A stretch of 64,000 nt of DNA from Cytophagales bacterium. GTDB taxonomy: Bacteria > Bacteroidota > Bacteroidia > Cytophagales > Microscillaceae. Positions 6,841 through 51,739 of the stretch are shown one piece after another; position 1 is the stretch's first letter, and every line of letters begins with the position of its first letter. The stretch lies in assembly GCA_013298075.1 (NCBI GenBank), contig JAAFJG010000006.1, positions 20,535 to 84,534 of the forward strand. The letters are read 5' to 3'. A model generated the notes under the pieces. That model searched no databases and had not been told where the DNA came from. It worked only from the letters and a program-made list of their open reading frames with translations. The translations under genes were made by a program, and so were the position numbers.

Positions 6841-7380
6841 ATTAAAAAAAGATTGTTTTTACAAAAAAGGTGAAATATTTTTTTCAATTGCCTCCCTCCT
6901 ATTTTTTTTTTCATTAATTTGTTTTTTTATTGAATATAAAAATACTAAAAATCAGCATCAAAATTTTTCCGCTCTTTTTTAATAGAATGTTTGTTTTTGG
7001 AAAATAATTTGTTCGTATATAAGTTTTTATACAAATAACTTTAATTATCAATATAAAAAATTGATTTTCGTAGCAAGATGAGTGCTATTTCTTATTCAAA
7101 AATATTAATGCTGTTTTTTTCTGAATTGCCTCCAGATTTATCTGAATTGCCTCCAGATTTATCTGGAGGATAATATAATTGTAATAATTGGCTTTAGCCA
7201 AAATTTTCAAAACGTACATTTTTTAACCTAAAAAAACGCAATAAATTTGGAACACCCTCACAATTTTCCTATCAATCAAAAAAATTTAATATTTTGAGAT
7301 TTAAAAAGTACGTATATATGTTTTTTCAAAAATAACTTTATAAAAATAGTATTTTTTTTAGAATATATAGCCTAAAAATA
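6841..7380. other. Non-coding stretch between two minus-strand transcription units
   Basis: About 540 bases without a convincing gene. It is very AT-rich in its first half. The second half holds a copy of the palindromic interspersed element (hairpins at 7150-7169 and 7188-7201) and, at about 7233-7252, a piece resembling one arm of the inverted repeat seen at 31239-31313. Confidence 0.5.
7121..7201 (+). repeat. Palindromic interspersed element, copy A (core only)
   Basis: CCTCCAGATTTATCTGGAGG at 7150-7169 is a perfect palindrome, preceded by one extra half-unit (CTGAATTGCCTCCAGATTTA from 7121). The second hairpin TTGGCTTTAGCCAA is at 7188-7201. The same pair of hairpins recurs near 17.8, 18.1, 23.6, 40.0 and 41.9 kb. 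The outer ends of this copy are not clear. Confidence 0.7.
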
Positions 7381-9179: not shown

Positions 9180-10079
9180 TTATTTATTTTTAATAACATT
9201 TTTAACATAATCAATACTCACCTCAAAAAAATCTGCTAATTCTTCTAAATTCATTCCTTTAGAATATCCTTTTAGAATATTTTTAAACCTTTCTTTTTGC
9301 TCGCCAATAGTTTCGCCCCTTGCTTCGCCTGTAGCTTCGCCAATTTGTTTGCCTTCTTGATAACGAAGGTCTTTTGTGATGTCTAATGTAATGGGCATAT
9401 TGTTAATTGTTTCAATGATGATATTTTGTAAACCACGTAAGCCGCGTAAACCACTCATAACATCTATTTGTTTTAGATATTTTTCTTGTTCAAGCGTACC
9501 TTTATAACGTATATCCGTTTCAGTTATTGTAATAATTCGATCCAAAATATTTTTGGCGACTACCCTTTCTGTCCCTTTGTCAAACTTCGCTAAAATTCCT
9601 AAAATCACAAATTCAGGAATATCTGACTCCAAAAATTCTTCGTAATCAATATCTCGAATATCGATAAGATTAAACCTAAATTTTATATTTTCATACTCAA
9701 AACTATTTTTCATCGTCATTTTTTCATCACCAATATAAATGACATACTGACGAACAGGTAATTTATGTTTTTTTAGCAAAATCATAAAATATTCACCCAT
9801 ACGAATATTCATATCAGTTTCATTTTTGGATTGAAATTCTATTTGAAGCAAATAATTCTTCTTTGGGTCATCTTCAAAAGTTACTTTGCGTAAAACATCA
9901 CTCTCACGTTCAATCGTAGATTGAATCAAAGGGTCTATTTCTGAAAGTTGAGTTTCAAGAATATCCAACGAAAATAATTTATTGACAATCGGTAAAGCAG
10001 ATTTATCAATATTTTCTTTGATAATTTTATCAAATTTATTACTTTTGTCGTTCTCTTTATTTTTAGGTTGTTCTTCCAT
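9180..10079 (-). CDS. Rpn family recombination-promoting nuclease / PD-(D/E)XK transposase-like protein, intact copy
   Basis: The start used is ATG 10079 (MEEQPKNKEND); a TTG 18 codons upstream lies on a promoter-like CAATTTTG and is less likely. The 299-residue protein has the Rpn/PD-(D/E)XK layout: YLLQIEFQSK carries the E-x-Q variant of the nuclease motif, followed by NIRMGEYFMILLKKH and YVIYIGDE. A Gly/Glu-rich linker (GEATGEARGETIGEQKE) joins this to a C-terminal helical domain with an HTH-like LEELADFFEVSIDYVKNVI. Rpn proteins in E. coli promote RecA-independent recombination. The adjacent broken copy (10220-11306) is almost identical, so the duplication is recent. Confidence 0.85.
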   Translation of the reverse strand: MEEQPKNKENDKSNKFDKIIKENIDKSALPIVNKLFSLDILETQLSEIDPLIQSTIERESDVLRKVTFEDDPKKNYLLQIEFQSKNETDMNIRMGEYFMILLKKHKLPVRQYVIYIGDEKMTMKNSFEYENIKFRFNLIDIRDIDYEEFLESDIPEFVILGILAKFDKGTERVVAKNILDRIITITETDIRYKGTLEQEKYLKQIDVMSGLRGLRGLQNIIIETINNMPITLDITKDLRYQEGKQIGEATGEARGETIGEQKERFKNILKGYSKGMNLEELADFFEVSIDYVKNVIKNK

Positions 10080-10133
10080 TTTATTGTTATGATTTATTTT
10101 TTTGAGTTTTATTGATGAAACTATTTTGTGCAA

Positions 10134-10219
10134 AATTGATAAAAAAATATTACTTTATTTATTCGCCAATAGTTTCATATTATTGATATTATTAATTGTT
10201 TCAATGATGATTAAAAAAA
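10134..10219 (-). pseudogene. Short remnants of a third Rpn copy between the two genes
   Basis: The spacer contains pieces that match internal parts of the neighbouring Rpn genes: CGCCAATAGTTTC, found in the GE-linker region at about 9303, and TTAATTGTTTCAATGATGAT, found near 9402. They are in the same order and orientation as in the genes but with the DNA between them lost. This looks like a deletion scar of a further gene copy. Confidence 0.5.
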
Positions 10220-11306
10220 TTAGTTACTTTTAATAACATTTTTAACATAATCAATACTCACCTCAAAAAAATCTGCCAATTCTTCTAAACTCATTCCTTT
10301 GGAATATCCTTTTAGAATATTTTTAAATCTTTCTTTTTCTCCGCCTTTGATTTCGCCTTTAATTTCGCCGATTGCTTCGCCGATTTCTTTACCGATTTCT
10401 TTGCCGATTTCTCTACCTCTCGCCTCGCCTTTCGCTTCGCCAATTTGTTTGCCTTCTTGATAACGAAGGTCTTTTGTGATGTCTAATGTAATAGGCATAT
10501 TGTTAATTGTTTCAATGATGATATTTTGTAAACCACGTAAGCCGCGTAAACCACTCATTACATCTATTTGTTTTAGATATTTTTCTTGTTCAAGCGTACC
10601 TTTATAACGTATATCCGTTTCAGTTATTGTAATAATTCGCTCCAAAATATTTTTGGCGACTACCCTTTCTGTCCCTTTGTCAAACTTCGCTAAAATTCCT
10701 AAAATCACAAATTCAGGAATATCTGACTCCAAAAATTCTTCGTAATCAATCTCTCGAATATCGATAAGATTAAACCTAAATTTTATATTTTCATACTCAA
10801 AACTATTTTTCATCGTCATTTTTTCATCACCAATATAAATAACGTATTGACGAACAGGTAATTTATGTTTTTTTAGCAAAATCATAAAATATTCACCCAT
10901 ACGAATATTCATATCAATTTCATTTTTGGATTGAAATTCTATTTGAAGCAAATAATTCTTCTTTGGGTCATCTTCAAAAGTTACTTTGCGTAAAACATCG
11001 CTCTCACGTTCAATCGTAGATTGAATCAAAGGGTCTATTTCTGAAAGTTGAGTTTCAAGAATATCCAACGAAAATAATTTATTGACAATCGGTAAAGCAG
11101 ATTTATCAATATTTTCTTTGATAATTTTATCAAATTTATTTCGTAGATTGAATCAAAGGGTCTATTTCTGAAAGTTGAGTTTCAAGAATATCCAACGAAA
11201 ATAATTTATTGACAATCGGTAAAGCAGATTTATCAATATTTTCTTTGATAATTTTATCAAATTTATTGCTTTTATCAATCTCTTTATTTTTAGGTTGTTC
11301 TTCCAT
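10220..11306 (-). pseudogene. Rpn family nuclease gene broken by an exact 127-bp duplication
   Basis: The gene starts at ATG 11306 like its neighbour (MEEQPKNKEID) but runs into a stop at 11136 because a 127-base segment is present twice (11014-11140 and 11141-11267, identical). 127 is not a multiple of three, so the frame shifts. Removing one copy gives an intact 319-residue frame, 20 residues longer than the intact paralogue; the extra length is wholly in the Gly/Glu linker, which here repeats GKEIG and GEIKG units. The downstream part remains open from a TTG at 11068, so a 282-residue C-terminal product is conceivable. Because the duplication is exact, reversion by recombination or slippage is possible. 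Confidence 0.85.
11014..11267. repeat. Exact 127-bp tandem duplication inside the Rpn gene
   Basis: Two identical copies lie end to end, both starting TCGTAGATTG and ending CAAATTTATT (11014-11140, 11141-11267). No mismatch was seen, so the event is very recent or the copies are kept alike. Confidence 0.9.
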
Positions 11307-11461
11307 TTTATTGTTATGATTTATTCTTTTGAGTTTTATTGATGAAACTATTTTGTGCAAAATTGATAAAAAAATATTACTTTTACAATGCTTTGATTGA
11401 TTATATTTTGATGATTATTGATGATTTTACATTTTTATATTAAAATTTAGATTTTCTTTTT

Positions 11462-17663: not shown

Positions 17664-17935
17664 ATTTTTAGAGAGAATATTTTTTGAATTATATCTTGAA
17701 TTTTCTTCAGATTTATCTTGAATTGTTTATAGATTTATCTTGAATTGCCTCCAGATTTATCTTGAATTGTTTATAGATTTATCTTGAATTGCCTCCAGAT
17801 TTATCTTGAATTGCCTCCAGATTTATCTGGAGGTCAATATACAATTTAACATTGGCTTTAGCCGAAATTCTATATTTTTGTATATTTCAAAATAAACAGT
17901 ATAAATGTCATTTATATTCAAAATGATAAATTTAT
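17664..17935 (+). repeat. Palindromic interspersed element, copy B, with expanded 22-bp array
   Basis: This copy begins right at the stop codon of the cystathionine gene with GATTTTTAGAGAGAATA, similar to the outer end of other copies. It carries the perfect hairpin CCTCCAGATTTATCTGGAGG at 17814-17833 and the second hairpin GGCTTTAGCC near 17859. Between the end and the first hairpin the half-unit has been multiplied (17696-17827). Copy C follows in opposite orientation. Confidence 0.75.
17696..17827 (+). repeat. Six tandem 22-bp units inside element copy B
   Basis: Six units start at 17696, 17718, 17740, 17762, 17784 and 17806, each beginning TTGAATT and ending AGATTTATC. Units 3, 5 and 6 carry the centre GCCTCC, units 2 and 4 carry GTTTAT and unit 1 carries TTCTTC. 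Only the last unit is followed by TGGAGG and can form the full hairpin. The alternation of two variants suggests duplication of a 44-bp pair. Confidence 0.85.
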
Positions 17936-23447: not shown

Positions 23448-23726
23448 GGTTCTAAGAAAATTATTGTGGCTATAATTTTATTCTAATATAATTCGAAAAT
23501 ATATAAAAATATCGATTTGAGAAACGCAGAGATTTTGGCTAAAGCCAATAATTGAATTTTATATTGTCCTCCAGATAAATCTGGAGGCAGTTCAAAAAAA
23601 CATTTTCCGCGCAAATTTCCTGAGAACCTTAAATTTTATATTGTCCTCCAGATAAATCTGGAGGCAATTCAAAAAATATATTTGAAAAAAAATATTTCCA
23701 TTTTTCTCACAAATTTTCTAAAATCT
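23448..23726 (-). repeat. Palindromic interspersed element, copy D, with a partial second unit
   Basis: The first unit runs from GGTTCTAAGAAAATT (23448) to AATTTCCTGAGAACC (ending 23628); these ends are inverted repeats with 13 of 15 positions matching, and the unit is 181 bp. Inside are GGCTAAAGCC near 23538 and the hairpin CCTCCAGATAAATCTGGAGG at 23568-23587. A second, partial unit (23629-23726) repeats the hairpin at 23645-23664 and a similar end. It starts six bases after the rfaE1 stop and fills the spacer to the sucC promoter. Confidence 0.8.
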
Positions 23727-28112: not shown

Positions 28113-29639
28113 TTATTGATATTTTTCGTGTAAAATTTCTTTAATTTCTTTCTCATAACAATTCACGCCCAATAAATAAATTTCTTTGTTGGGTTGTAAA
28201 TATTTTTGAAAATATTCTCTATCTTTGATTTGTTTTAAGGCAATTTCAGGAGTTTTATTTACCTTAAATTCAAATAAAAAAACGGCATTGTTATATTCTA
28301 ACACTGCATCAATTCTACCTTTCGAAGTTCTAACTTCTGCTTGCATTTTATAGCCTAGTAATTGAAAAGTAAGAAAAATAATGGCATGATAATAACTCTC
28401 TAATTCTTTCTCAAAAATATCACCAGGAATACTACCAAATAGTACATTTAATTGTTGTTTTAATAATTCAAAATCTCGTTTTAATAATGATTGTTCAATA
28501 TAATAAACCACCGAATAAGCCTCAGAAACATAACTAAAACCATTCAATAAATACCTAAACATCGATTTTTTTACTTCTAAATTTGGATAAGTTAAAACAT
28601 ATCCCTCTCCCAAATCCTCTTTAATGGTCAAGTAACCTGTTTGATATAATAAAGTAACTTGGTTGATATTTTCTAATGAAAAACTACCGATTAGATCATC
28701 TCCAATGACTATATTATCGACATTAAATGTTCTTTTTTTCTGTAATAAATTTATCAATAAAGAAGGAGTTCCTGTCTCGAACCAAAAATTAGCAAATCTT
28801 CTATTCGATAAAAAACGTAACATGGAAAAGGGATTATACACTTTTTCTTTTCCCAAAAAATTATACCCATTATACCAAAGTTTTACTTCTTGGGAAAAAT
28901 CAGCATAAGATAAGTTTAAATTTGATGCAATTTCTTTTAATTTTTCAGGAAAGTAAAACTCTAATTCTGTTTGTGTATAACCTAATAATTCCCCAAAATC
29001 TGGGTGTAAACTTAAATCATCTAAATTATTCAAATCAGAAAAAATAGACACTTTGGCAAATTTTGTAATCCCTGTTAAAAAGAAAAAACGAATGTGGGAA
29101 TCCAATCCTTTTAATGTACTATAAAAATTTTTGAGAATATCACGATTTTCAATAGCCAGTTCTATTTTCCCTTTTTCCAAATAATCCCCAATCGGTTTAT
29201 CATATTCATCAATCAAAATAACAACTTTCTCGATTTTGGATAATTTGATAATCAATTCGTTAAAAATAGATTTTATATCATCAGTATTTATCTCAATATT
29301 ATAATCTTGAGCAATATCTAATAATCTTTTTTTGAGCGTAACTTCTAAACCTAATTTATCATAACTCAACAAAGTAAAATCAATTTTTATAACGGGATGT
29401 TTTTTCCATTCAATTTGCTCTTCTATCCAAAGTCCTTTGAATAGGTCTTTTCTTCCTTCAAATAAATAATATAATGTATTGACTAACAAGGATTTACCAA
29501 ATCTACGCGGACGCGAAAGGAAATAATATTTTCCTTGTAACATTTGAAAAATATACTTTGTTTTGTCCACGTATACATAATTTCCCTCAATTACTTCTGC
29601 AAAGTCTTGTATGCCAATCGGATATTTTTGATTTTCCAT
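28113..29639 (-). CDS. DUF1703 AAA-type ATPase with PD-(D/E)XK nuclease-like tail, copy 1
   Basis: The 508-residue protein has the AAA-ATPase-like N-terminal domain of the DUF1703 family: YPIGIQDFAEVI, YVYVDKTKYI, a P-loop-like RPRRFGKSLLVNTL (about 43-56) and the Walker B-like ILIDEYDKPI (about 141-150). The C-terminal part ends in a PD-(D/E)XK-type core: GRIDAVLEYNNAVFLFEFK with the E-F-K catalytic triplet. The family is strongly expanded in gut and aquatic bacteria; its role is not settled, and links with mobile DNA or defence are suggested by its patchy distribution. It lies nine bases after an almost identical gene. Confidence 0.8.
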   Translation of the reverse strand: MENQKYPIGIQDFAEVIEGNYVYVDKTKYIFQMLQGKYYFLSRPRRFGKSLLVNTLYYLFEGRKDLFKGLWIEEQIEWKKHPVIKIDFTLLSYDKLGLEVTLKKRLLDIAQDYNIEINTDDIKSIFNELIIKLSKIEKVVILIDEYDKPIGDYLEKGKIELAIENRDILKNFYSTLKGLDSHIRFFFLTGITKFAKVSIFSDLNNLDDLSLHPDFGELLGYTQTELEFYFPEKLKEIASNLNLSYADFSQEVKLWYNGYNFLGKEKVYNPFSMLRFLSNRRFANFWFETGTPSLLINLLQKKRTFNVDNIVIGDDLIGSFSLENINQVTLLYQTGYLTIKEDLGEGYVLTYPNLEVKKSMFRYLLNGFSYVSEAYSVVYYIEQSLLKRDFELLKQQLNVLFGSIPGDIFEKELESYYHAIIFLTFQLLGYKMQAEVRTSKGRIDAVLEYNNAVFLFEFKVNKTPEIALKQIKDREYFQKYLQPNKEIYLLGVNCYEKEIKEILHEKYQ

Positions 29640-29648
29640 AGTTTTTGT

Positions 29649-31175
29649 TTATTGATATTTTTCGTGTAAAATTTCTTTAATTTCTTTCTCATAACAATTC
29701 ACGCCCAATAAATAAATTTCCTTATTAGGTTGTAAATATTTTTGAAAATATTCTCTATCTTTAATCTGTTTTAAGGCAATTTCAGGAGTTTTATTTACCT
29801 TAAATTCAAATAAAAAAACGGCATTGTTATATTCTAACACTGCATCAATTCTACCTTTCGAAGTTCTAACTTCTGCTTGCATTTTATAGCCTAGTAATTG
29901 AAAAGTAAGAAAAATAATGGCATGATAATAACTCTCTAATTCTTTCTCAAAAATATCACCAGGAATACTACCAAATAGTACATTTAATTGTTGTTTTAAT
30001 AATTCAAAATCTCGTTTTAATAATGATTGTTCAATATAATAAACCACCGAATAAGCCTCAGAAACATAACTAAAACCATTCAATAAATACCTAAACATCG
30101 ATTTTTTTACTTCTAAATTTGGATAAGTTAAAACATATCCCTCTCCCAAATCCTCTTTAATGGTCAAGTAACCTGTTTGATATAATAAAGTAACTTGGTT
30201 GATATTTTCTAATGAAAAACTACCGATTAGATCATCTCCAATGACTATATTATCGACATTAAATGTTCTTTTTTTCTGTAATAAATTTATCAATAAAGAA
30301 GGAGTTCCTGTCTCGAACCAAAAATTAGCAAATCTTCTATTCGATAAAAAACGTAACATGGAAAAGGGATTATACACTTTTTCTTTTCCCAAAAAATTAT
30401 ACCCATTATACCAAAGTTTTACTTCTTGGGAAAAATCAGCATAAGATAAGTTTAAATTTGATGCAATTTCTTTTAATTTTTCAGGAAAGTAAAACTCTAA
30501 TTCTGTTTGTGTATAACCTAATAATTCCCCAAAATCTGGGTGTAAACTTAAATCATCTAAATTATTCAAATCAGAAAAAATAGACACTTTGGCAAATTTT
30601 GTAATCCCTGTTAAAAAGAAAAAACGAATGTGGGAATCCAATCCTTTTAATGTACTATAAAAATTTTTGAGAATATCACGATTTTCAATAGCCAGTTCTA
30701 TTTTCCCTTTTTCCAAATAATCCCCAATCGGTTTATCATATTCATCAATCAAAATAACAACTTTCTCGATTTTGGATAATTTGATAATCAATTCGTTAAA
30801 AATAGATTTTATGGTTATGTTTTCAATCTCTATTTGATATTTTTTGGCAGTTAAAAATAAGGTTTCTTTGATAGAATTTTCCAACCCTAATTTATCATAA
30901 TCTAACAAAGTAAAATCAATTTTTATAACGGGATGTTTTTTCCATTCGATTTTTTCTTCTATCCAAAGTCCCTTGAATAAGTCTTTTCTTCCTTCAAATA
31001 AATAATATAAAGTATTGACTAACAAGGATTTACCAAATCTACGCGGACGCGAAAGAAAATAATATGCTCCTTGTAGCATTTGATAAATATACTTTGTCTT
31101 GTCCACATACACATAATTTTCTTCTCGCAATTTAGCAAAATCTTGTATGCCGATTGGATATTTTTGATTTTCCAT
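29649..31175 (-). CDS. DUF1703 AAA-type ATPase with PD-(D/E)XK nuclease-like tail, copy 2
   Basis: This 508-residue protein matches copy 1 residue for residue from about position 121 onwards, and the DNA is the same over most of that length, at a constant offset of 1536 bases. The first 120 residues differ: for example, NSIKETLFLTAKKYQIEIEN here against VTLKKRLLDIAQDYNIEINT in copy 1, and the DNA differs again over the last few dozen bases. This pattern fits a duplication later made uniform in the middle by gene conversion. It is the upstream gene of the pair; the spacing suggests one transcript. The P-loop-like RPRRFGKS and the E-F-K triplet are intact. Confidence 0.8.
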   Translation of the reverse strand: MENQKYPIGIQDFAKLREENYVYVDKTKYIYQMLQGAYYFLSRPRRFGKSLLVNTLYYLFEGRKDLFKGLWIEEKIEWKKHPVIKIDFTLLDYDKLGLENSIKETLFLTAKKYQIEIENITIKSIFNELIIKLSKIEKVVILIDEYDKPIGDYLEKGKIELAIENRDILKNFYSTLKGLDSHIRFFFLTGITKFAKVSIFSDLNNLDDLSLHPDFGELLGYTQTELEFYFPEKLKEIASNLNLSYADFSQEVKLWYNGYNFLGKEKVYNPFSMLRFLSNRRFANFWFETGTPSLLINLLQKKRTFNVDNIVIGDDLIGSFSLENINQVTLLYQTGYLTIKEDLGEGYVLTYPNLEVKKSMFRYLLNGFSYVSEAYSVVYYIEQSLLKRDFELLKQQLNVLFGSIPGDIFEKELESYYHAIIFLTFQLLGYKMQAEVRTSKGRIDAVLEYNNAVFLFEFKVNKTPEIALKQIKDREYFQKYLQPNKEIYLLGVNCYEKEIKEILHEKYQ

Positions 31176-31238
31176 AGTTTATTTTAATTTTATATCATTC
31201 TAAAAAAGTCTTTAAAATTATTTTCAAAAATAATTTAA

Positions 31239-39976: not shown

Positions 39977-40140
39977 GTTTTTAGAGAATTTTTGCATTTT
40001 TTTTTGAAATGTATTTTTGAATTGCCTCCAGATTTATCTGGAGGATAATATAAAATTCAATTGTTGGCTTTAGCCGAAATTTTATACTTTTTGATATTTC
40101 AAATAAGTGAAATAAATCTAATTTCTACATAAATAATAAT
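39977..40140 (+). repeat. Palindromic interspersed element, copy E
   Basis: The left end GTTTTTAGAGAATTTTTGC starts at 39977, 20 bases after the TPR-CHAT stop. The hairpin CCTCCAGATTTATCTGGAGG is at 40025-40044 and GGCTTTAGCC near 40066. The right end is decayed. Orientation is opposite to copies C, D and F. Confidence 0.7.
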
Positions 40141-41786: not shown

Positions 41787-42000
41787 GGTTCATAAGAAAT
41801 TATTGCAGAGCTAATTTTATTCTACTATAAATAGCCATTTATTTTGAAAATATAGAAAAATATTAATTTGAAAAATGTAGAGATTTCGGCTAAAGCCAAC
41901 TATTGATTTTTTTATTATCCTCCAGATAAATCTGGAGGCAATTCAAAAAATATATTTCAAAAAAAATATTTTCATTTTACGCACAAATATCCTAAGAATC
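41787..42000 (-). repeat. Palindromic interspersed element, copy F (best full-length copy)
   Basis: The 214-bp unit begins GGTTCATAAGAAATT (41787) and ends AATATCCTAAGAATC (42000), imperfect inverted ends with about 11 of 15 positions matching. Inside are GGCTAAAGCC near 41888 and the hairpin CCTCCAGATAAATCTGGAGG at 41919-41938. It fills most of the spacer between the lipoprotein gene and the WG-repeat gene. Confidence 0.8.
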
Positions 42001-45691: not shown

Positions 45692-46069
45692 ATGGACTAT
45701 CAAACTGTTGCCAATAAAGTAAAAGAATTTGTTACGTTAAAGGTTGAAATTCAACAAAAATTAGATGAAATAGCACAATTAGAAATCAATCCACCCAAAT
45801 TAGAAAAAGAAGTTTTGACTTGGGAAGAAGCAGTGGCTTATGCTGAACATCAAAAATCACACGCAGATAATTTGATAAAATTGCGTATGGGCATTATGAA
45901 TCGACAAGAAATTGTATTGAATAGAGAAAAAGAAATTGGCGAAATTTTACCTATTCAAAATCATTATATTTTATTTAAAATCAAGCTAAACGAAGCAGAA
46001 GAAACCTATAAAATTGGTTATTTCCCCGAATCTTATGGATTTAGAATGGAAAAAATGATAGAAAAATAA
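45692..46069 (+). CDS. Unknown 125-residue coiled-coil protein
   Basis: I do not recognise this protein. It has a helical N-terminal half (KEFVTLKVEIQQKLDEIAQL), a central helix with WEEAVAYAEHQKSHADNLI, and a short C-terminal part ending YGFRMEKMIEK. It is hydrophilic with no signal peptide. It lies just outside the left direct repeat of the R-M cassette and would have been next to the FKBP gene before the insertion. Confidence 0.65.
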   Translation: MDYQTVANKVKEFVTLKVEIQQKLDEIAQLEINPPKLEKEVLTWEEAVAYAEHQKSHADNLIKLRMGIMNRQEIVLNREKEIGEILPIQNHYILFKIKLNEAEETYKIGYFPESYGFRMEKMIEK

Positions 46070-46086: not shown

Positions 46087-46150
46087 AACAACCAATTATC
46101 CAAATAAATAAAAATATTTTTTGTTGTTTTGAATATATTTTATTACTTTT
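46087..46150. repeat. Left 64-bp direct repeat flanking the R-M cassette
   Basis: Matches 50360-50423 in 62 of 64 positions (AACAACCAATTATCCAAATA at the start, GAATATATTTTATTACTTTT at the end). Its last two bases are part of the endonuclease stop codon (46149-46151). The promoter box at the end of the right copy (TACTTTTG) reads TACTTTTA here, so this copy lost the promoter. Confidence 0.9.
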
Positions 46151-47978
46151 AAAGTAATTCTGTTTGTTCTTGTTTAATTTTACGTTGTATTTTATACACC
46201 AATGGAAAATCTGTTTCACCTTCAATAATTGGAATTAAATCTCGTAGAGTTTGATTGAATATACCTATTGCCCAACGTGTTCGATTAGTAATTCGGAAAA
46301 TAAAATCTACTTTATCAGGTTGCCAAGTAGTTGGTGTATTTGTAATTGTACCAAAGGCAACACCTATCAAAATATTACGAATATTATCGTTTTGATCTAT
46401 CACTTTTGCTGCAACTAATGTTTGTTTCAAAGCATTTTTATAATTATATTCATTCTTGTATTGTAATATTTTTGCTGTATCTCGCTCTAATTCAGATTTT
46501 ATAAACATTCCTTTGCTTTCATTAAGCAATACATCAGTGTTATTTTCTGGCGAAACCGCTATAATATCAGGATATTGACGAGACTGTTCTTTACCTTTTT
46601 CTGGCTCAGGTAAAACTGCACCTCCACCTTGTGCGCCTGGGTAAGAAACGGAAACTATTTTAAACTTATTTGGTAGTAATAGTTTGTGAATGATTGTATA
46701 AGTTACTTCATCTTCATCTACTTCTATTTTTACTTCTTGGGTTGGTGTTGCTTCTGTAAAATCTATAAAGTTTAAATTTTTCTTTAAATTATTCAAAAAA
46801 CTACCTTGTGGATTTCCTAATAATTCTCGTCTATCCCAAACTAATTTGATACCATTATGGTTAAGATACATACCATCTAAAAAGTAAGCGAGTGTTAAAA
46901 TTACCTTATTTTCTGTTATTCTTCCAGCATATTTTTTCCAAAAGTATTGAAAATCAACTTCTTGAGTTAGACTTGTGGCATTATCAGCAATTTTAATTAG
47001 TTCTATAGCTAAAATTTTTGAGAGATTATTGTCCTTACCTTTTAACCATTCATCTTTTTCAAGAGCTATTCTTAATTGTGTTCGTAACGTAGTTAAGTCT
47101 GTAATATCTGTTTTTAATATTTGCATTTTGCGAACTAATGCGTAAATCCCAAATATTTTATGTGTTTCAGAAAATATAAACGAAATAAAAGTAAGTACTC
47201 CTCTATCAGGATCCATAGCATGGCTAAAGCGATTGATTTTTGCTCCCACCCAACTCGAACGCACAAAATAACGAAGTTTATTTAGTTTATGATTTCTATC
47301 TTCTCTTTCTTTCCAATTTTTTAACAGTTCTATAGCGCCAGTAGCTTCATTTATGATAGTTTGATAATTTTTGTGAGATGTTGTTTTGCTTAATTCTAAT
47401 GTTGCGTGTTTAAACCAATTTTCTTTATATTGCTGAAATGTAGTAATAGATTTTTGTATTGTTTCTTGTAAAATAGGAATAATAGGAGGACAAGAAGGGA
47501 AACAATTATTACGCTGTAAGTTAAAAATATTTTCACCTGTTTCCCAATCTGCTATGATAAAGCCATAATAATTATATTGTATCTGTAACATTTTAGGCGT
47601 ACTATATGGATTATAGGTTGCTCCACCAAAAGCCTTTTCTGCTTGTTTATTTCCCGAAATTTTCACATAAAACATCGGACATAAATAAGCTGCAACAGCA
47701 CCATAAGTTCGTTGTAATTCGTGATCTTCTGTTTGTACAGCTTCTGTAAATTCAATTAGTACTAACGGATATTCAATATTGTTACTTATAGCAGTTATTA
47801 AAATATCAGGGGTAGTTAAGGATTGAATGGCAGAAATTACACCTTGACAAAGATGTGTAGCAGATTTAGGACGTTTGATTAACTTGATTTCTACATTTAA
47901 CGCATTTGCTTTAACCATAGGTAATATGTAATTATGCCCCTGTTCCAAGCATTCATAATAAATTCTAAATTCAGTCAT
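46149..47978 (-). CDS. Restriction endonuclease, PD-(D/E)XK type, of a two-methyltransferase system
   Basis: The 609-residue protein has no overall family I recognise, but its place after two DNA methyltransferases (8-base overlap with the second) and a clear nuclease motif support restriction activity. P470-D471 in RQYPDIIAVSPENN and E487-S488-K489 in LLNESKGMF form a PD-(D/E)XK centre with typical spacing. A second PD-like site is near the N terminus: PDILITAISNNIEY (P57-D58) followed by VLIEFTEAV (E76), where the lysine is replaced. Enzymes cutting asymmetric sites often carry two catalytic domains, so a two-centre enzyme is possible. The stop codon lies at the edge of the left direct repeat. 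Confidence 0.75.
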   Translation of the reverse strand: MTEFRIYYECLEQGHNYILPMVKANALNVEIKLIKRPKSATHLCQGVISAIQSLTTPDILITAISNNIEYPLVLIEFTEAVQTEDHELQRTYGAVAAYLCPMFYVKISGNKQAEKAFGGATYNPYSTPKMLQIQYNYYGFIIADWETGENIFNLQRNNCFPSCPPIIPILQETIQKSITTFQQYKENWFKHATLELSKTTSHKNYQTIINEATGAIELLKNWKEREDRNHKLNKLRYFVRSSWVGAKINRFSHAMDPDRGVLTFISFIFSETHKIFGIYALVRKMQILKTDITDLTTLRTQLRIALEKDEWLKGKDNNLSKILAIELIKIADNATSLTQEVDFQYFWKKYAGRITENKVILTLAYFLDGMYLNHNGIKLVWDRRELLGNPQGSFLNNLKKNLNFIDFTEATPTQEVKIEVDEDEVTYTIIHKLLLPNKFKIVSVSYPGAQGGGAVLPEPEKGKEQSRQYPDIIAVSPENNTDVLLNESKGMFIKSELERDTAKILQYKNEYNYKNALKQTLVAAKVIDQNDNIRNILIGVAFGTITNTPTTWQPDKVDFIFRITNRTRWAIGIFNQTLRDLIPIIEGETDFPLVYKIQRKIKQEQTELL

Positions 47979-49104
47979 TTTTCTTCGTTAATATAATTAA
48001 ATGTTCTTTTTTACCTTTCTTAGCAAAAGTTGGGTTAAATATTCGAGAGTGATTTGAAAGATCTGATGAAATAATATCTTTAACTTCAAAACCAATATTA
48101 CTAACAAATTCTTTAATTACTTCATCAATTTTTATGATTTTTTGTTTGATAACGCTATCACCAATTATGATAAATGCAGGATGATTGATCTTTAAGACTC
48201 GATGCATTTCTTTAAAACATAAAATTAAATCATCTGTCCATTTTTGAGAATCATGTTTTAGACTTGAAAATTGTCGCCGTGACCCTATTTCATTATATTG
48301 TGCAAACTTAACATCTAAGTCTAGCCAACGTTTACGAAATTTATGGTATAAATAATAGTCATAAGTATTCGCATAAGGTGGTGATGTAATAATAATATCA
48401 ATACTATTATCAGTAATAAAAGATAAATTTCGGCTGTCTGCATTAAATAATGTTAATTCTGTTTTTGTATCTATTTTATTTGAAAGTTCTACAACTCGTT
48501 TCAAATATTCAACAGCTTTTGAAATAAATATTTTAAAAGTAAAATCATCTAAAATATTTTTGTTAACGGCAGCAAATCGTGTATCACTATCTTGATTAGA
48601 TACTTTTACAATTATCGAAGAAAACACAATTTTCAAAAAATCTTTAATTTCATTGTCTTCTATTTTTGTTATTTCTTGTAAAATATAAGTTAATTCTTCA
48701 GCTACATTTAGTTGAAACCAGTGTGATAAACCCTCAATATTTTTAGTAGTAATTTGGGGACGAATATTTTTCCATCCAGAATTATCCTTTTCTAATTGAG
48801 TTATGAATTGTTTAATGATTATTTGTTTTTCTTGTGTCAAAGGCGTTGATTTTACCTTTGAAAGTAAAATAGATAAACCATTTACATCAACACCAATAGC
48901 ATTAATTCCTTGTAAACGTGCTTCTAATAAGGTTGTTCCAGAGCCACAAAAAGGATCCAGAACTGTCTGCCCTACTCCTGCAAATTGTTTAAGCAAACTT
49001 TGTGGAAGTTGAGGCGGAAACTTAGCAGGGTATGGATGTAATGAATGTGTTAAATAAGATGTGTTACTACCTTTAAAGTTAAACTCTATATTTGTTGTTA
49101 TCAT
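47971..49104 (-). CDS. DNA methyltransferase with SPPY motif (second of two)
   Basis: The 377-residue enzyme has the SAM-binding motif I DPFCGSGTT (50-58) and the catalytic TSPPYA (240-245), with motif I first. SPPY is most often found in N4-cytosine methyltransferases, although some N6-adenine enzymes have it. The N terminus SLHPYPAKFPPQLPQSLLKQ and the C-terminal FIIIGDSVI and HLIILTKK strands are typical of the family. It follows the other methyltransferase by two bases and overlaps the endonuclease by eight. Two separate methyltransferases suggest an asymmetric recognition site, one for each strand. Confidence 0.85.
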   Translation of the reverse strand: MITTNIEFNFKGSNTSYLTHSLHPYPAKFPPQLPQSLLKQFAGVGQTVLDPFCGSGTTLLEARLQGINAIGVDVNGLSILLSKVKSTPLTQEKQIIIKQFITQLEKDNSGWKNIRPQITTKNIEGLSHWFQLNVAEELTYILQEITKIEDNEIKDFLKIVFSSIIVKVSNQDSDTRFAAVNKNILDDFTFKIFISKAVEYLKRVVELSNKIDTKTELTLFNADSRNLSFITDNSIDIIITSPPYANTYDYYLYHKFRKRWLDLDVKFAQYNEIGSRRQFSSLKHDSQKWTDDLILCFKEMHRVLKINHPAFIIIGDSVIKQKIIKIDEVIKEFVSNIGFEVKDIISSDLSNHSRIFNPTFAKKGKKEHLIILTKKND

Positions 49105-49106
49105 TA

Positions 49107-50054
49107 TTAATTTACTTTTCTAAATATCACAATAAATGAGCAGTTTTGATTCGAGTATAATACACTTGGATAACCTAATAATACTAAACGTCTTTGACCT
49201 GTTTGATCCCAAATAATTAAATCATGAAACTTCCAACCTACTTCCTCACCTGCTCTTGCAAGGTCAGAATGAAAGGGAACATAAGGAATTTTATTTTTAG
49301 TATCTCTATAATCTTTTACTACCCAACATGAATAACCACCTTGTTTTGTAACAGTTAGATTTGCTGTTAGAACTTCTTTTATTTGTTCTAAAAATTCAGG
49401 ATAAGGTAGATTCCCAAAGTCTTTTTCACTTTCACTATATTGTTTCACCGTACTATTATTTTCATTCTTAATAATAGATGTTTTGTGTACAGTAGCTCTA
49501 TCTTTTAGTGATTTTTGGATAAAATCAGCATAAGGTGGTGATGTTACGGTAAGTTGTATTTTCTCAGATCGAACATGGTTTAGTAAGTTTCTACAATCAT
49601 CATTTACTATTTTATAATGTAAGTCATTTTTAAAAATCCCTTCTATATCATAAAGCCAGTTTTCTGCGATTTTTGCGAACTTTGGGTTTAGTTCTGTACC
49701 TATAGCGTGACGTTTGAGGTTATGGGCTGCAATTATAGCTGTACCAATACCTAAGAAGGGATCAAAAATCGTGTCTCCCTCTTTTGAGTACATTTTTATC
49801 AGTCTTTCTGCTAACTTTATAGGATAAACAGCGCCATGTTCTAATTGATATTTATTTCTTGGAGATGAAAGATTATTCCAAACTGGATTTAATAATTCAT
49901 CTTCATTAATAACGTTTTTTGAAAGTAATGCCCATTCACTTGGGGTCAAACCATTAAAGCCTAATTTTGCTTTTTTTTCCTCATTTTCAATTTCTCGTTT
50001 CACTAATAAAGGATTATCAGTTTCAGAAACTATTTTATTTATATTTTCTTCCAT
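49107..50054 (-). CDS. DNA methyltransferase with SPPY motif (first of two)
   Basis: The 315-residue enzyme has LEHGAVYPIKLAERLIKMYS, then motif I DPFLGIGT (98-105), an acidic SAM-ribose contact in GTELNPKF, and the catalytic TSPPYA (171-176). The C-terminal part has SCWVVKDYRD and HDLIIWDQTG as expected. It is the first gene of the operon, made before the nuclease, so methylation can precede restriction. A promoter at 50283-50314 leaves a leader of about 225 bases with no gene for a controller protein. Confidence 0.85.
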   Translation of the reverse strand: MEENINKIVSETDNPLLVKREIENEEKKAKLGFNGLTPSEWALLSKNVINEDELLNPVWNNLSSPRNKYQLEHGAVYPIKLAERLIKMYSKEGDTIFDPFLGIGTAIIAAHNLKRHAIGTELNPKFAKIAENWLYDIEGIFKNDLHYKIVNDDCRNLLNHVRSEKIQLTVTSPPYADFIQKSLKDRATVHKTSIIKNENNSTVKQYSESEKDFGNLPYPEFLEQIKEVLTANLTVTKQGGYSCWVVKDYRDTKNKIPYVPFHSDLARAGEEVGWKFHDLIIWDQTGQRRLVLLGYPSVLYSNQNCSFIVIFRKVN

Positions 50055-50282
50055 TTTATATTTATGTTCTCTTTCATTTTTGAAATAAAATTGTTTTAAA
50101 TTCTATTCTTAATAATATCTTATTTTTTGAATTTTTATAGAAAGTATAGTTTTGTTAGCGATACAATATTTTATTACTACTTCAGAAATTTTCAATAATT
50201 TTTAATGTTTTTTTATATTGTAATATCTCATACATAATTTAATTTTTAGTAAAAATAAAAAATATTAAAATAGAATAGGATA
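50055..50282 (-). other. Untranslated leader of the R-M operon
   Basis: Between the operon promoter and the first methyltransferase ATG are about 230 bases of AT-rich DNA. No open frame for a C (controller) protein and no strong hairpin was seen. With the promoter and right direct repeat, this makes a gap of about 435 bases before the FKBP gene. Confidence 0.4.
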
Positions 50283-50314
50283 CAAAGGTATGATACTATT
50301 TGGTATTCTCCAAA
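50283..50314 (-). promoter_or_regulatory. Promoter of the R-M operon
   Basis: On the minus strand TTTG (50314-50311) precedes TACCTTTG (50290-50283) by 20 bases. It lies inside the inserted cassette, so the operon brought its own promoter. Confidence 0.65.
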
Positions 50315-50359
50315 TATTTGTATGATAATTTTATTATTTTTGGTTTTTTAGTACCACTT

Positions 50360-50423
50360 AACAACCAATTATTCAAATAAATAAAAATATTTTTTGTTAT
50401 TTTGAATATATTTTATTACTTTT
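50360..50423. repeat. Right 64-bp direct repeat, containing the FKBP promoter
   Basis: Second copy of the flanking repeat, with two differences from 46087-46150. It contains TTTG at 50393-50396, and TACTTTTG (50417-50424) ends one base past the repeat, a promoter with a 20-base spacer for the FKBP gene 68 bases downstream. Confidence 0.9.
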
Positions 50424-50491
50424 GCAATGCTTTTGAGTAGAAATAAAAATTCTTCTTAAAAAAACTAAAAATTTAATTACTTTCGTTATTT

Positions 50492-51739
50492 ATGAAAAAT
50501 ATTCTTATTGGAATTATATCCATTTTTTGTTCATTATTTTTGTCAAGTTGTTATATCAATAGTGATAACACAGAACAACAAGCACGCGAATTGAACAACC
50601 AACAAATTCAACAATATATTAGAGCCAATAATTTGACCGCACAAGGCACTGGAAGCGGACTTTTTTATGTGAAAACCGTTACAAACCCCACAGGAGCAAT
50701 ACCACAAACAGGCGATTCTCTAAAAATTCATTTTACTGCTCGTTTATTAAGCGGAAAAATAGTAGATAGTACTTCTGTTTATTACAGCAAACCTGACGGT
50801 ATTATTTTAGGAGCAGGAACGGTCGTGGCAGGCTTAGACGAAGGATTGAGATTGATGAAAGTAGGCGAAAGAATGACTTTGATGATGCCTTCTTATTTGG
50901 GAATAGGCGCAAGAGCAAACACCTATATTCCACCTTATTCGGTTTTAATTTATGATGTAACATTGGTTTCTATCAAAACAGAAGAACAACAAATCGCGGC
51001 ATTTATTGCTCGAAAAGGATACACAGTTACCTCTACAAATGCTGATAAATTGAGATATGTAAGAGTAACAGCAGGTTCAACAGGGGCAAATATTTATGAT
51101 GGAAATGTAATAAACGTCAATTATAAAGGAACTTTATTGAATGATTTTGTATTTGATAGCAAAACAGACTCAACTTTCTTTTTTATTGCAGGACAAAATC
51201 AAGTCATCAAAGGTTGGGAACAAGGCATTAAATTAACTACCGAAGGTGAAAAATGTATTTGGATTATTCCATCAGCATTGGCTTATGGTGCAGGAGGTTC
51301 TTCGGGAAGAATACCACCTTATGCTCCTTTATGTTTCGAAATCACACACGTAAAAAGTCAAAGAAGAAGAATTATAGAATATGTGGCTACTCGTACTTGG
51401 AACGATACTATTCGCACTAATTCGGGACTTTATACACGAAAAATTGTAACTAATTCGACAGGAAGAACGCCTACAATAAATTCTTCTATTCGTTTTAATT
51501 ATACGACTACTTTATTTGATGGCACAGTAGCAAAAACAGGTGCCAATATTTCTACTACTATTAATTCAGGATTAGATATATTAGTACCAGGTTTGAAAGA
51601 AGGTTTGCAACTAATGAAACAAGGAGAAAGATGGGTATTTTTAGTACCTTCATTTTTGGGGTATGGAAATAGTGGCTCAGGTAGAATTGCAGGCAAAACG
51701 CCTGTGGTTATGGAGGTCGATTTGATAGAAGTTAATTAG
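50492..51739 (+). CDS. Lipoprotein with three FKBP-type peptidyl-prolyl isomerase domains
   Basis: The 415-residue protein has a lipoprotein signal (SIFCSLFLSSC, Cys at about 20), then three FKBP domains at about 60-165, 190-290 and 310-415. Domain 2 keeps the active-site Trp (VIKGWEQGIKL), while domains 1 and 3 have Leu at that place (VVAGLDEGLRLM; LVPGLKEGLQLM). Each domain ends with the usual PP/TPVVxEVxL strand. FKBPs catalyse cis-trans isomerisation of proline bonds and can act as chaperones for exported proteins; this one is likely anchored at the outer membrane facing the periplasm. In Bacteroidota similar lipoproteins (GldI-like) support gliding or secretion. Confidence 0.87.
   Translation: MKNILIGIISIFCSLFLSSCYINSDNTEQQARELNNQQIQQYIRANNLTAQGTGSGLFYVKTVTNPTGAIPQTGDSLKIHFTARLLSGKIVDSTSVYYSKPDGIILGAGTVVAGLDEGLRLMKVGERMTLMMPSYLGIGARANTYIPPYSVLIYDVTLVSIKTEEQQIAAFIARKGYTVTSTNADKLRYVRVTAGSTGANIYDGNVINVNYKGTLLNDFVFDSKTDSTFFFIAGQNQVIKGWEQGIKLTTEGEKCIWIIPSALAYGAGGSSGRIPPYAPLCFEITHVKSQRRRIIEYVATRTWNDTIRTNSGLYTRKIVTNSTGRTPTINSSIRFNYTTTLFDGTVAKTGANISTTINSGLDILVPGLKEGLQLMKQGERWVFLVPSFLGYGNSGSGRIAGKTPVVMEVDLIEVN

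Follow-up and report, generated by a model that had tools for sequence, protein, structure and literature searches.

A restriction–modification operon between 64-bp direct repeats in a Cytophagales genome that holds further repeat-flanked gene sets

Introduction

Insertion of restriction–modification (R-M) genes with a long target duplication was reportedly described in Helicobacter pylori by Nobusato et al. in 2000. The present analysis concerns an R-M operon in the genome of a Cytophagales bacterium (Bacteroidota; assembly GCA_013298075.1), located in a stretch of 64,000 nucleotides of contig JAAFJG010000006.1 (positions 20,535 to 84,534 of the forward strand). This stretch is referred to as the window, and positions in it are counted from its first letter. 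The operon lies between two copies of a 64-bp direct repeat, upstream of a gene encoding an FKBP-type peptidyl-prolyl isomerase.

For H. pylori, several papers describe R-M insertions with target duplications that are long and variable in length (PMC1643837, PMC3874152, PMC3031569, PMC4978471). Two other precedents bear on the recurrence of such inserts in one genome, i.e., the comparable flanks of transposed genes in Arabidopsis (PMC2869330) and the repeats, mostly shorter than 30 bp, that are common at the ends of variable segments in bacterial genomes (PMC2884548). For the operon in the window, it is probable that the genes were acquired horizontally and inserted upstream of the FKBP gene, thereby duplicating approximately 62–64 bp of the target. 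Insertion with target duplication had been put forward in an original prediction made from the letters of the window alone. The patchy occurrence of the unit and its position between two locus-specific copies make it the favored explanation, short of proof.

Repeat copies and edges of the unit between them

Exactly as had been predicted, the sequences at 46087–46150 and 50360–50423 are identical in 62 of 64 bases and in direct orientation. Their spacing is 4,273. When the left flank is compared with the right flank by blastn, the pair is recovered at E 1e-26. The repeat copies, the unit between them and the adjacent genes are the following:

46087–46150, plus strand: left repeat copy, the probable duplicate, without the last G of the -7 box of the promoter
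46151–50359, no strand assigned: inserted unit between the copies, 4,209 bp
50360–50423, plus strand: right repeat copy, the probable resident copy, bearing the FKBP promoter-like site
46149–47978, minus strand: restriction endonuclease R, 609 aa (PADLOC REase_II PDLC03439, 8.2e-36)
47971–49104, minus strand: DNA methyltransferase M1, 377 aa (N6_N4_Mtase)
49107–50054, minus strand: DNA methyltransferase M2, 315 aa (N6_N4_Mtase)
50283–50313, minus strand: R-M operon promoter-like site, TTG-N20-TACCTTTG, within the unit
50394–50424, plus strand: FKBP promoter-like site, TTG-N20-TACTTTTG, all but its last base in the right copy
45692–46069, plus strand: 125-residue gene, on the left side of the unit, with varying neighbors in the 11 of 36 relatives that have it
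50492–51739, plus strand: FKBP-type peptidyl-prolyl isomerase, 415 aa, followed by a patatin gene

The TTG-N20 consensus is that of the Bacteroidota-type promoter. The pattern is not rare, as two more matches lie in the coding part of the unit.

The left copy indeed ends inside the stop codon of the endonuclease gene (46149–46151), with which it shares two bases. As these two repeat bases also form part of the stop codon, between 62 and 64 bp may actually have been duplicated. The cassette edges that the original prediction had given are located with this latitude in the length of the duplication. It had further placed the FKBP promoter in the right copy. The promoter-like site is present there, except that its last G (50424) is the first base beyond the copy, at the point where the left copy continues with an A.

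The whole-genome search for the repeat covered 4.71 Mb in 153 contigs, and 40 of 272 candidates were scored. At least 16 matches were obtained at E<=0.001, consisting of the two window copies and 14 weaker ones, the best of which reach 80% over 49 bases (contig C109) and 91% over 34 bases (C118). Among the candidates scored, a gapped match of 75% across the repeat in C68 lies upstream of another gene, and we take it to be a promoter-like AT-rich region rather than a copy of the repeat. A third close copy was not found in the genome among these 40 candidates; in line with the prediction, the sequence is not repeated at many unrelated sites. A dispersed promoter repeat is rejected, as only two close copies were found among the candidates scored. 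A REP-like family as the source of the repeat is ruled out as well, since the sequence differs. Such a REP-like palindromic repeat with a GCCTCCAGATTTATCTGGAGG core is dispersed in the window (7122–7232, 17670–17896, 23532–23693, 39996–40107, and 41865–41967) and has many copies across the genome stretches surveyed.

The region upstream of FKBP in G001, one of two congeners compared (G001 and G002), matches the right copy in 31 of 36 bases in the best alignment. Mononucleotide shuffles reached the G001 score in 0 of 300 cases with the 64-bp query, in 1 of 300 with a longer query and in 3 of 300 with the left copy. At the one mismatch between the copies that is clearly alignable, G001 has an A, as does the right copy, where the left copy has a G. 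Because the G001 promoter matches the right copy, this copy is probably the resident one and the left copy the duplicate, as judged from a single congener. With two close copies and a match at the FKBP promoter of G001, the repeat is classified as target DNA.

Genes of the R-M unit

The unit contains three adjacent genes on the minus strand in the order M2-M1-R, in which PADLOC recognizes one REase_II and two MTase_II. With an endonuclease and methyltransferases in one operon, it qualifies as a Type II R-M gene set, and the same set is kept in three other genomes (G090, G634, and G459) and on a Helicobacter plasmid. In the protein scan, R was assigned to no Pfam family. No relative of solved structure was found at E<=1, and the predicted model of R is poor, with a mean predicted local distance difference test score (pLDDT) of 53. 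R was aligned with four relatives, to which it is 67, 62, 49, and 31% identical. Residues D471, E487, and K489 are invariant in the five aligned homologs (YPD-x15-ESK), as are D58 and E76; the former set is presumably a PD-(D/E)XK-like nuclease motif. The presence of two methyltransferases suggests that the recognition site may be asymmetric. Two other open reading frames of at least 60 aa are present in the unit; the first, of 69 aa, lies opposite M1, and the second, of 79 aa, crosses the left edge.

Neither a transposase nor an integrase is present among the scanned proteins of the unit (R, M1, and M2), and no insertion sequence (IS) or transposase family was found in the scanned WG-repeat, 125-residue, FKBP, and patatin genes. 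A composite transposon or IS-borne unit was rejected, as the repeat is 64 bp long and non-coding and no transposase family was found in the scanned genes. An integrase-borne island with attL and attR was also rejected, as R, M1, and M2 are the only genes of the unit. By eye, the ends of the unit show what may be imperfect terminal inverted repeats (7 of 10 bases).

Occurrence of the operon in other genomes

At a cut-off of E<=1e-15, homologs of R were detected in 3 of the 390 genomes searched in the order and in 4 of the 395 searched in the phylum. Both counts include the present genome, and one of the phylum-level matches (G551) is a piece of 89 residues. At the same cut-off R is absent from both congeners, with an assembly completeness of 91% for G001 and 79% for G002, and from 12 other family members searched. 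The order M2-M1-R is shared with G634 and G459; in G090 it is R-M2-M1, which is a circular permutation, and in G168 R-M2 stands at the end of a contig. On a 15-kb Helicobacter plasmid, two methyltransferase genes precede a distant relative of R (29% identity over 45% of R). The phage search for R gave no match, and no relative was found on viral contigs. Given the related operons in other genomes and on the Helicobacter plasmid, this type of operon occurs in distant hosts.

In G090 (L054, 4895–10948), the R-M operon lies amid repeated pieces, some of which are also present on another contig. These pieces resemble uvrA 3′ ends and nucleotidyltransferase/HEPN genes.

Other repeat-flanked gene sets in the same genome

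In total, 1.47 Mb of the genome was surveyed for comparable arrangements, including the window. Part of this sequence was picked around methyltransferases of family PF01555 and part was not: 19 PF01555 loci and one rtcB-like locus were taken, followed by stretches not picked for methyltransferases. The survey yielded 74 raw repeat pairs, 36 of which have at most three partial copies. This copy filter dropped the pairs of the window, PDC-M31, and PDC-M45, which were added by hand to give 39 pairs. By eye, six of the 36 pairs flank cassettes and one is ambiguous (C70:2885/8131), the other 29 being tandem or paralogous gene copies by appearance, or uninspected. Repeat pairs with more copies are not counted, and neither is a 55-bp pair of 93% identity around two genes in C73 (L121, 460–514/2676–2730), which passed one copy filter and failed another.

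Eight further gene sets, classed by eye, lie between direct repeats of 82–174 bp. On the basis of their translations, the surrounding genes are referred to as thrS, smc, transporter, glycosyltransferase, and TonB receptor.

C92: R-M operon with TdeIII-like and EcoO109I-like endonucleases and one methyltransferase; repeat of 84 bp, one copy of which is the promoter region of a transporter-like gene
C92: SocA_Panacea antitoxin with a partner assigned to no family; repeat of 174 bp, glycosyltransferase-like 3′ end
C109: D12 methyltransferase and PDC-M31; repeat of 100 bp, smc 3′ end
C109: PDC-M31 alone, nested in the D12 methyltransferase insert; repeat of 118 bp
C147: KilA-N gene; repeat of 173 bp, thrS 3′ end
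C88: PDC-M45 (components A, B, and C); repeat of 82 bp
C2: three genes, the two that were scanned having no Pfam family; repeat of 85 bp, TonB-receptor-like 3′ end
C77: four genes, the three that were scanned being of glycan type; repeat of 148 bp

With the window included, six of nine inserts carry R-M, methyltransferase, antitoxin, or candidate defense genes, a share biased by the choice of part of the sequence around methyltransferases; among the inserts in stretches not picked in this way (C88, C2, and C77), one of three is a defense candidate. The copies of a pair differ by 0.6% (thrS) to 12% (PDC-M45), and the insertion events would therefore be of different ages. The PDC-M45 repeat has a third copy at 84%, and part of the PDC-M31 repeat is a dispersed REP-like palindrome. 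No shared motif was seen by eye at the edges of the nine inserts.

In C92 (L112, 7506–12469), the 84-bp and 174-bp pairs alternate around the R-M operon and the SocA-type pair, as if two cassettes at one site had ended in tandem. In C109 (10816–14278), the inserts behind smc are nested, the 118-bp PDC-M31 pair lying inside the 100-bp smc pair. In C147 (L125, 6540–7663), the thrS 3′-end copies around the KilA-N gene are 99.4% identical.

The counterparts of three of the target sites were compared in the congeners. The thrS 3′ end is present in one copy each in G001 and G002, whose whole genomes were searched, and the thrS stretches compared contain no KilA-N match, that of G002 reaching 368 bp past thrS. 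The smc 3′ end occurs in one copy in G001, and the 1.5 kb compared next to the gene is free of both the D12 methyltransferase and PDC-M31; the smc search of G002 gave no match. At the transporter-like gene of G001, both copies match at the same single place, over at most 43 bases, and the C92-type repeat was unrecognized at the corresponding gene of G002. No gene of the C92 R-M operon stands beside the transporter-like gene in G001 or G002.

Elsewhere in the window, two recent tandem duplications were observed, one of a 1,536-bp unit at 96% (28113–31189) and one of a paralogous gene pair at 91% (9180–11383).

Alternative explanations

In favor of an insertion with target duplication, only 60 of 20,000 random 3.9-kb segments drawn from the DNA surveyed had one of the 39 pairs around them within 1 kb, a count that includes the cassettes themselves. 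Other observations weigh against it. In a cruder control limited to the window, 2 of 152 random segments had some flanking direct repeat. The genome has 28 PF01555 matches at 21 places, of which 20 loci including the window were examined (C75:54196, below the cut-off, was left out), and at least four of these are hard to judge, being no more than 500 bp away from a contig end. Locus-specific flanking repeats are present at only two of the 20 loci, i.e., the window and C92, and two others have dispersed or low-complexity repeats. As the window was chosen for its repeat, the independent count is 1 of 19, and the enrichment of flanking repeats at R-M loci is weak evidence. Upstream of FKBP in G002, no match to the promoter copy above shuffles was seen. 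There is also no empty site, the 125-residue gene and FKBP being together in none of the loci compared from 11 and 8 relatives, respectively. Finally, the homologous R-M units of G634 and G459 have no comparable flanking repeats, that of the Helicobacter plasmid has no close ones, that of G168 is truncated by the end of its contig, and in G090 the direct repeats on both sides of the unit, 92–98% identical, are long and partly found elsewhere in that genome. Since homologous units are without such repeats or have different ones, the repeat belongs to the landing site and not to the R-M family.

The original prediction had also derived a gene order before insertion, i.e., 125-residue gene, promoter, FKBP, and this part did not find support. 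FKBP is missing from the loci of the 125-residue gene compared in 11 relatives. Conversely, both the 125-residue gene and the R-M genes are missing from the FKBP loci compared in 8 relatives, although some of the compared loci span only a few kb. A contig scan gave four loci of the 125-residue gene, three of which are those of G001, G002, and G006, without an FKBP match in any. FKBP is followed by patatin in G001, in G002, and here, with a different upstream neighbor of FKBP; in both congeners the 125-residue gene adjoins a gene that we take to be rtcB-like, which is on contig C2 here. G001 has a single promoter copy at FKBP, without the endonuclease, and the two flanking genes are adjacent in no relative examined. 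As judged from these loci, synteny decays so fast that the order just before the event is neither proven nor excluded, and with such a turnover of gene order the compared genomes give no true empty site here. In G001, methyltransferase-like stretches with a distant similarity to M1 and M2 are located 5–6 kb from the 125-residue gene (C226; L058, 3784–4706).

This turnover bears on a first alternative, in which the repeat is the scar of a rearrangement: a duplication or translocation would have brought the 125-residue gene next to a copy of the FKBP promoter, and the R-M genes would have been captured at the breakpoint or near it, without any single insertion between the two genes. The surroundings of the 125-residue gene have changed in one lineage, as the position of the rtcB-like gene illustrates, and its neighbors differ in nearly every relative examined. 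Moreover, R-M systems have been linked to inversions and translocations (PMC3031569). However, the copies are direct and bracket the unit tightly, with only R-M genes between them, while the duplication that accompanies a simple inversion would be expected to yield inverted copies. A rearrangement is considered rather unlikely.

Secondly, an R-M circle carrying a similar promoter segment might have integrated by a single crossover at the FKBP promoter. The two mismatches between the copies fit two parental sequences as well as later mutation. Circular carriers exist, as indicated by the circular permutation of the operon order together with the related set on the 15-kb plasmid, and a circle model for flanking repeats has been laid out for Arabidopsis (PMC2869330). 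Yet no compared FKBP or R-M locus joins this operon to FKBP, and the thrS, smc, and transporter-promoter targets are unrelated, so that each donor would need a new matching segment. Homologous integration is considered improbable. Lastly, it is very improbable that the repeat pair predates the unit or that the arrangement is ancestral and was lost in relatives by recombination between the copies: segments between direct repeats are deletion-prone and 10–18% of the variable segments in four bacterial data sets are repeat-flanked, mostly by repeats under 30 bp (PMC2884548), but the endonuclease is absent from both congeners and the 12 other family members searched, and the 97% identity of the AT-rich non-coding copies, compared to approximately 79% protein identity of FKBP to the congeners, argues for a recent duplication.

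Possible mechanism of insertion

Insertion with target duplication would most likely begin where a DNA break leaves long staggered ends, or with a strand-displacement event of equivalent effect. At those ends, a fragment bearing the operon, either linear or circular, could be captured, perhaps via a few shared bases, and fill-in synthesis that copies the overhangs would result in two copies of the target. The right copy would then have kept or rebuilt the FKBP promoter, leaving the neighbor intact, and the left copy would be an inert scar. The single event, its chemistry and the prior gene order are what we infer. In the cases looked at closely, the duplicated stretch is either a promoter, as at FKBP and the transporter, or the end of a gene, as at thrS, smc, the glycosyltransferase, and the TonB receptor, and selection for survivors could account for duplications at gene edges.

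Restriction cleavage is probably not needed, because inserts without restriction genes show the same outcome. As this outcome apparently also arises with other cargo, the mechanism is probably one of the host, or of its DNA uptake and repair, rather than of the R-M enzymes. A broader and more tentative idea, which at present seems doubtful, is that the lineage gains small cassettes, which in many cases are entire immunity systems (R-M, SocA-type toxin–antitoxin, PDC-M31, and PDC-M45), by one transposase-free process that copies approximately 60–175 bp of the landing site and leaves the neighbor intact, the R-M enzymes being cargo. If one such process inserts R-M, toxin–antitoxin, and other cassettes without a transposase or integrase, and the duplication restores the disrupted neighbor, direct repeats of 60–175 bp would be a search signal for recently mobile genes, whether of defense or not, and the mechanism would be testable in a culturable Bacteroidota host.

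Comparison with known systems

The movement of PaeR7I linked to insertion sequences is alike in that an R-M unit moves within a genome and is flanked by direct repeats afterward. These repeats, however, are the insertion sequences, with target duplications of 4–10 bp (PMC3031569), whereas no IS is present here. Closer in form are the transposed genes of Arabidopsis, where ordinary genes lie between direct repeats that match the unoccupied orthologous site of a relative. In contrast to the present case, these concern a plant, they are explained by a model of excision circles and ectopic recombination with target duplication as one of the explanations, and neither restriction genes nor other defense genes of bacteria are part of the description (PMC2869330). 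As for defense cassettes with a long target duplication in Bacteroidota, no account was found in the titles and abstracts listed by the literature searches, which does not prove that none is in print.

The nearest counterpart remains the H. pylori case, where R-M genes are likewise described between long direct repeats of host sequence without a transposase. Duplications of the order of 100 bp would be expected for this type, and the 62–64 bp found here, with no mobile-element gene among the proteins of the unit, fit it. Unlike in H. pylori, the host is a Cytophagales genome of the Bacteroidota, and the case is made without an empty site in the same species. A further difference is that, in this genome, antitoxin, candidate defense, and surface genes also appear to be flanked in this way. 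The locus in the window is thus a good new member of the H. pylori type of insertion, in a Bacteroidota genome, and its reappearance around antitoxin, PDC, and surface genes of a single genome reaches beyond the known R-M cases.

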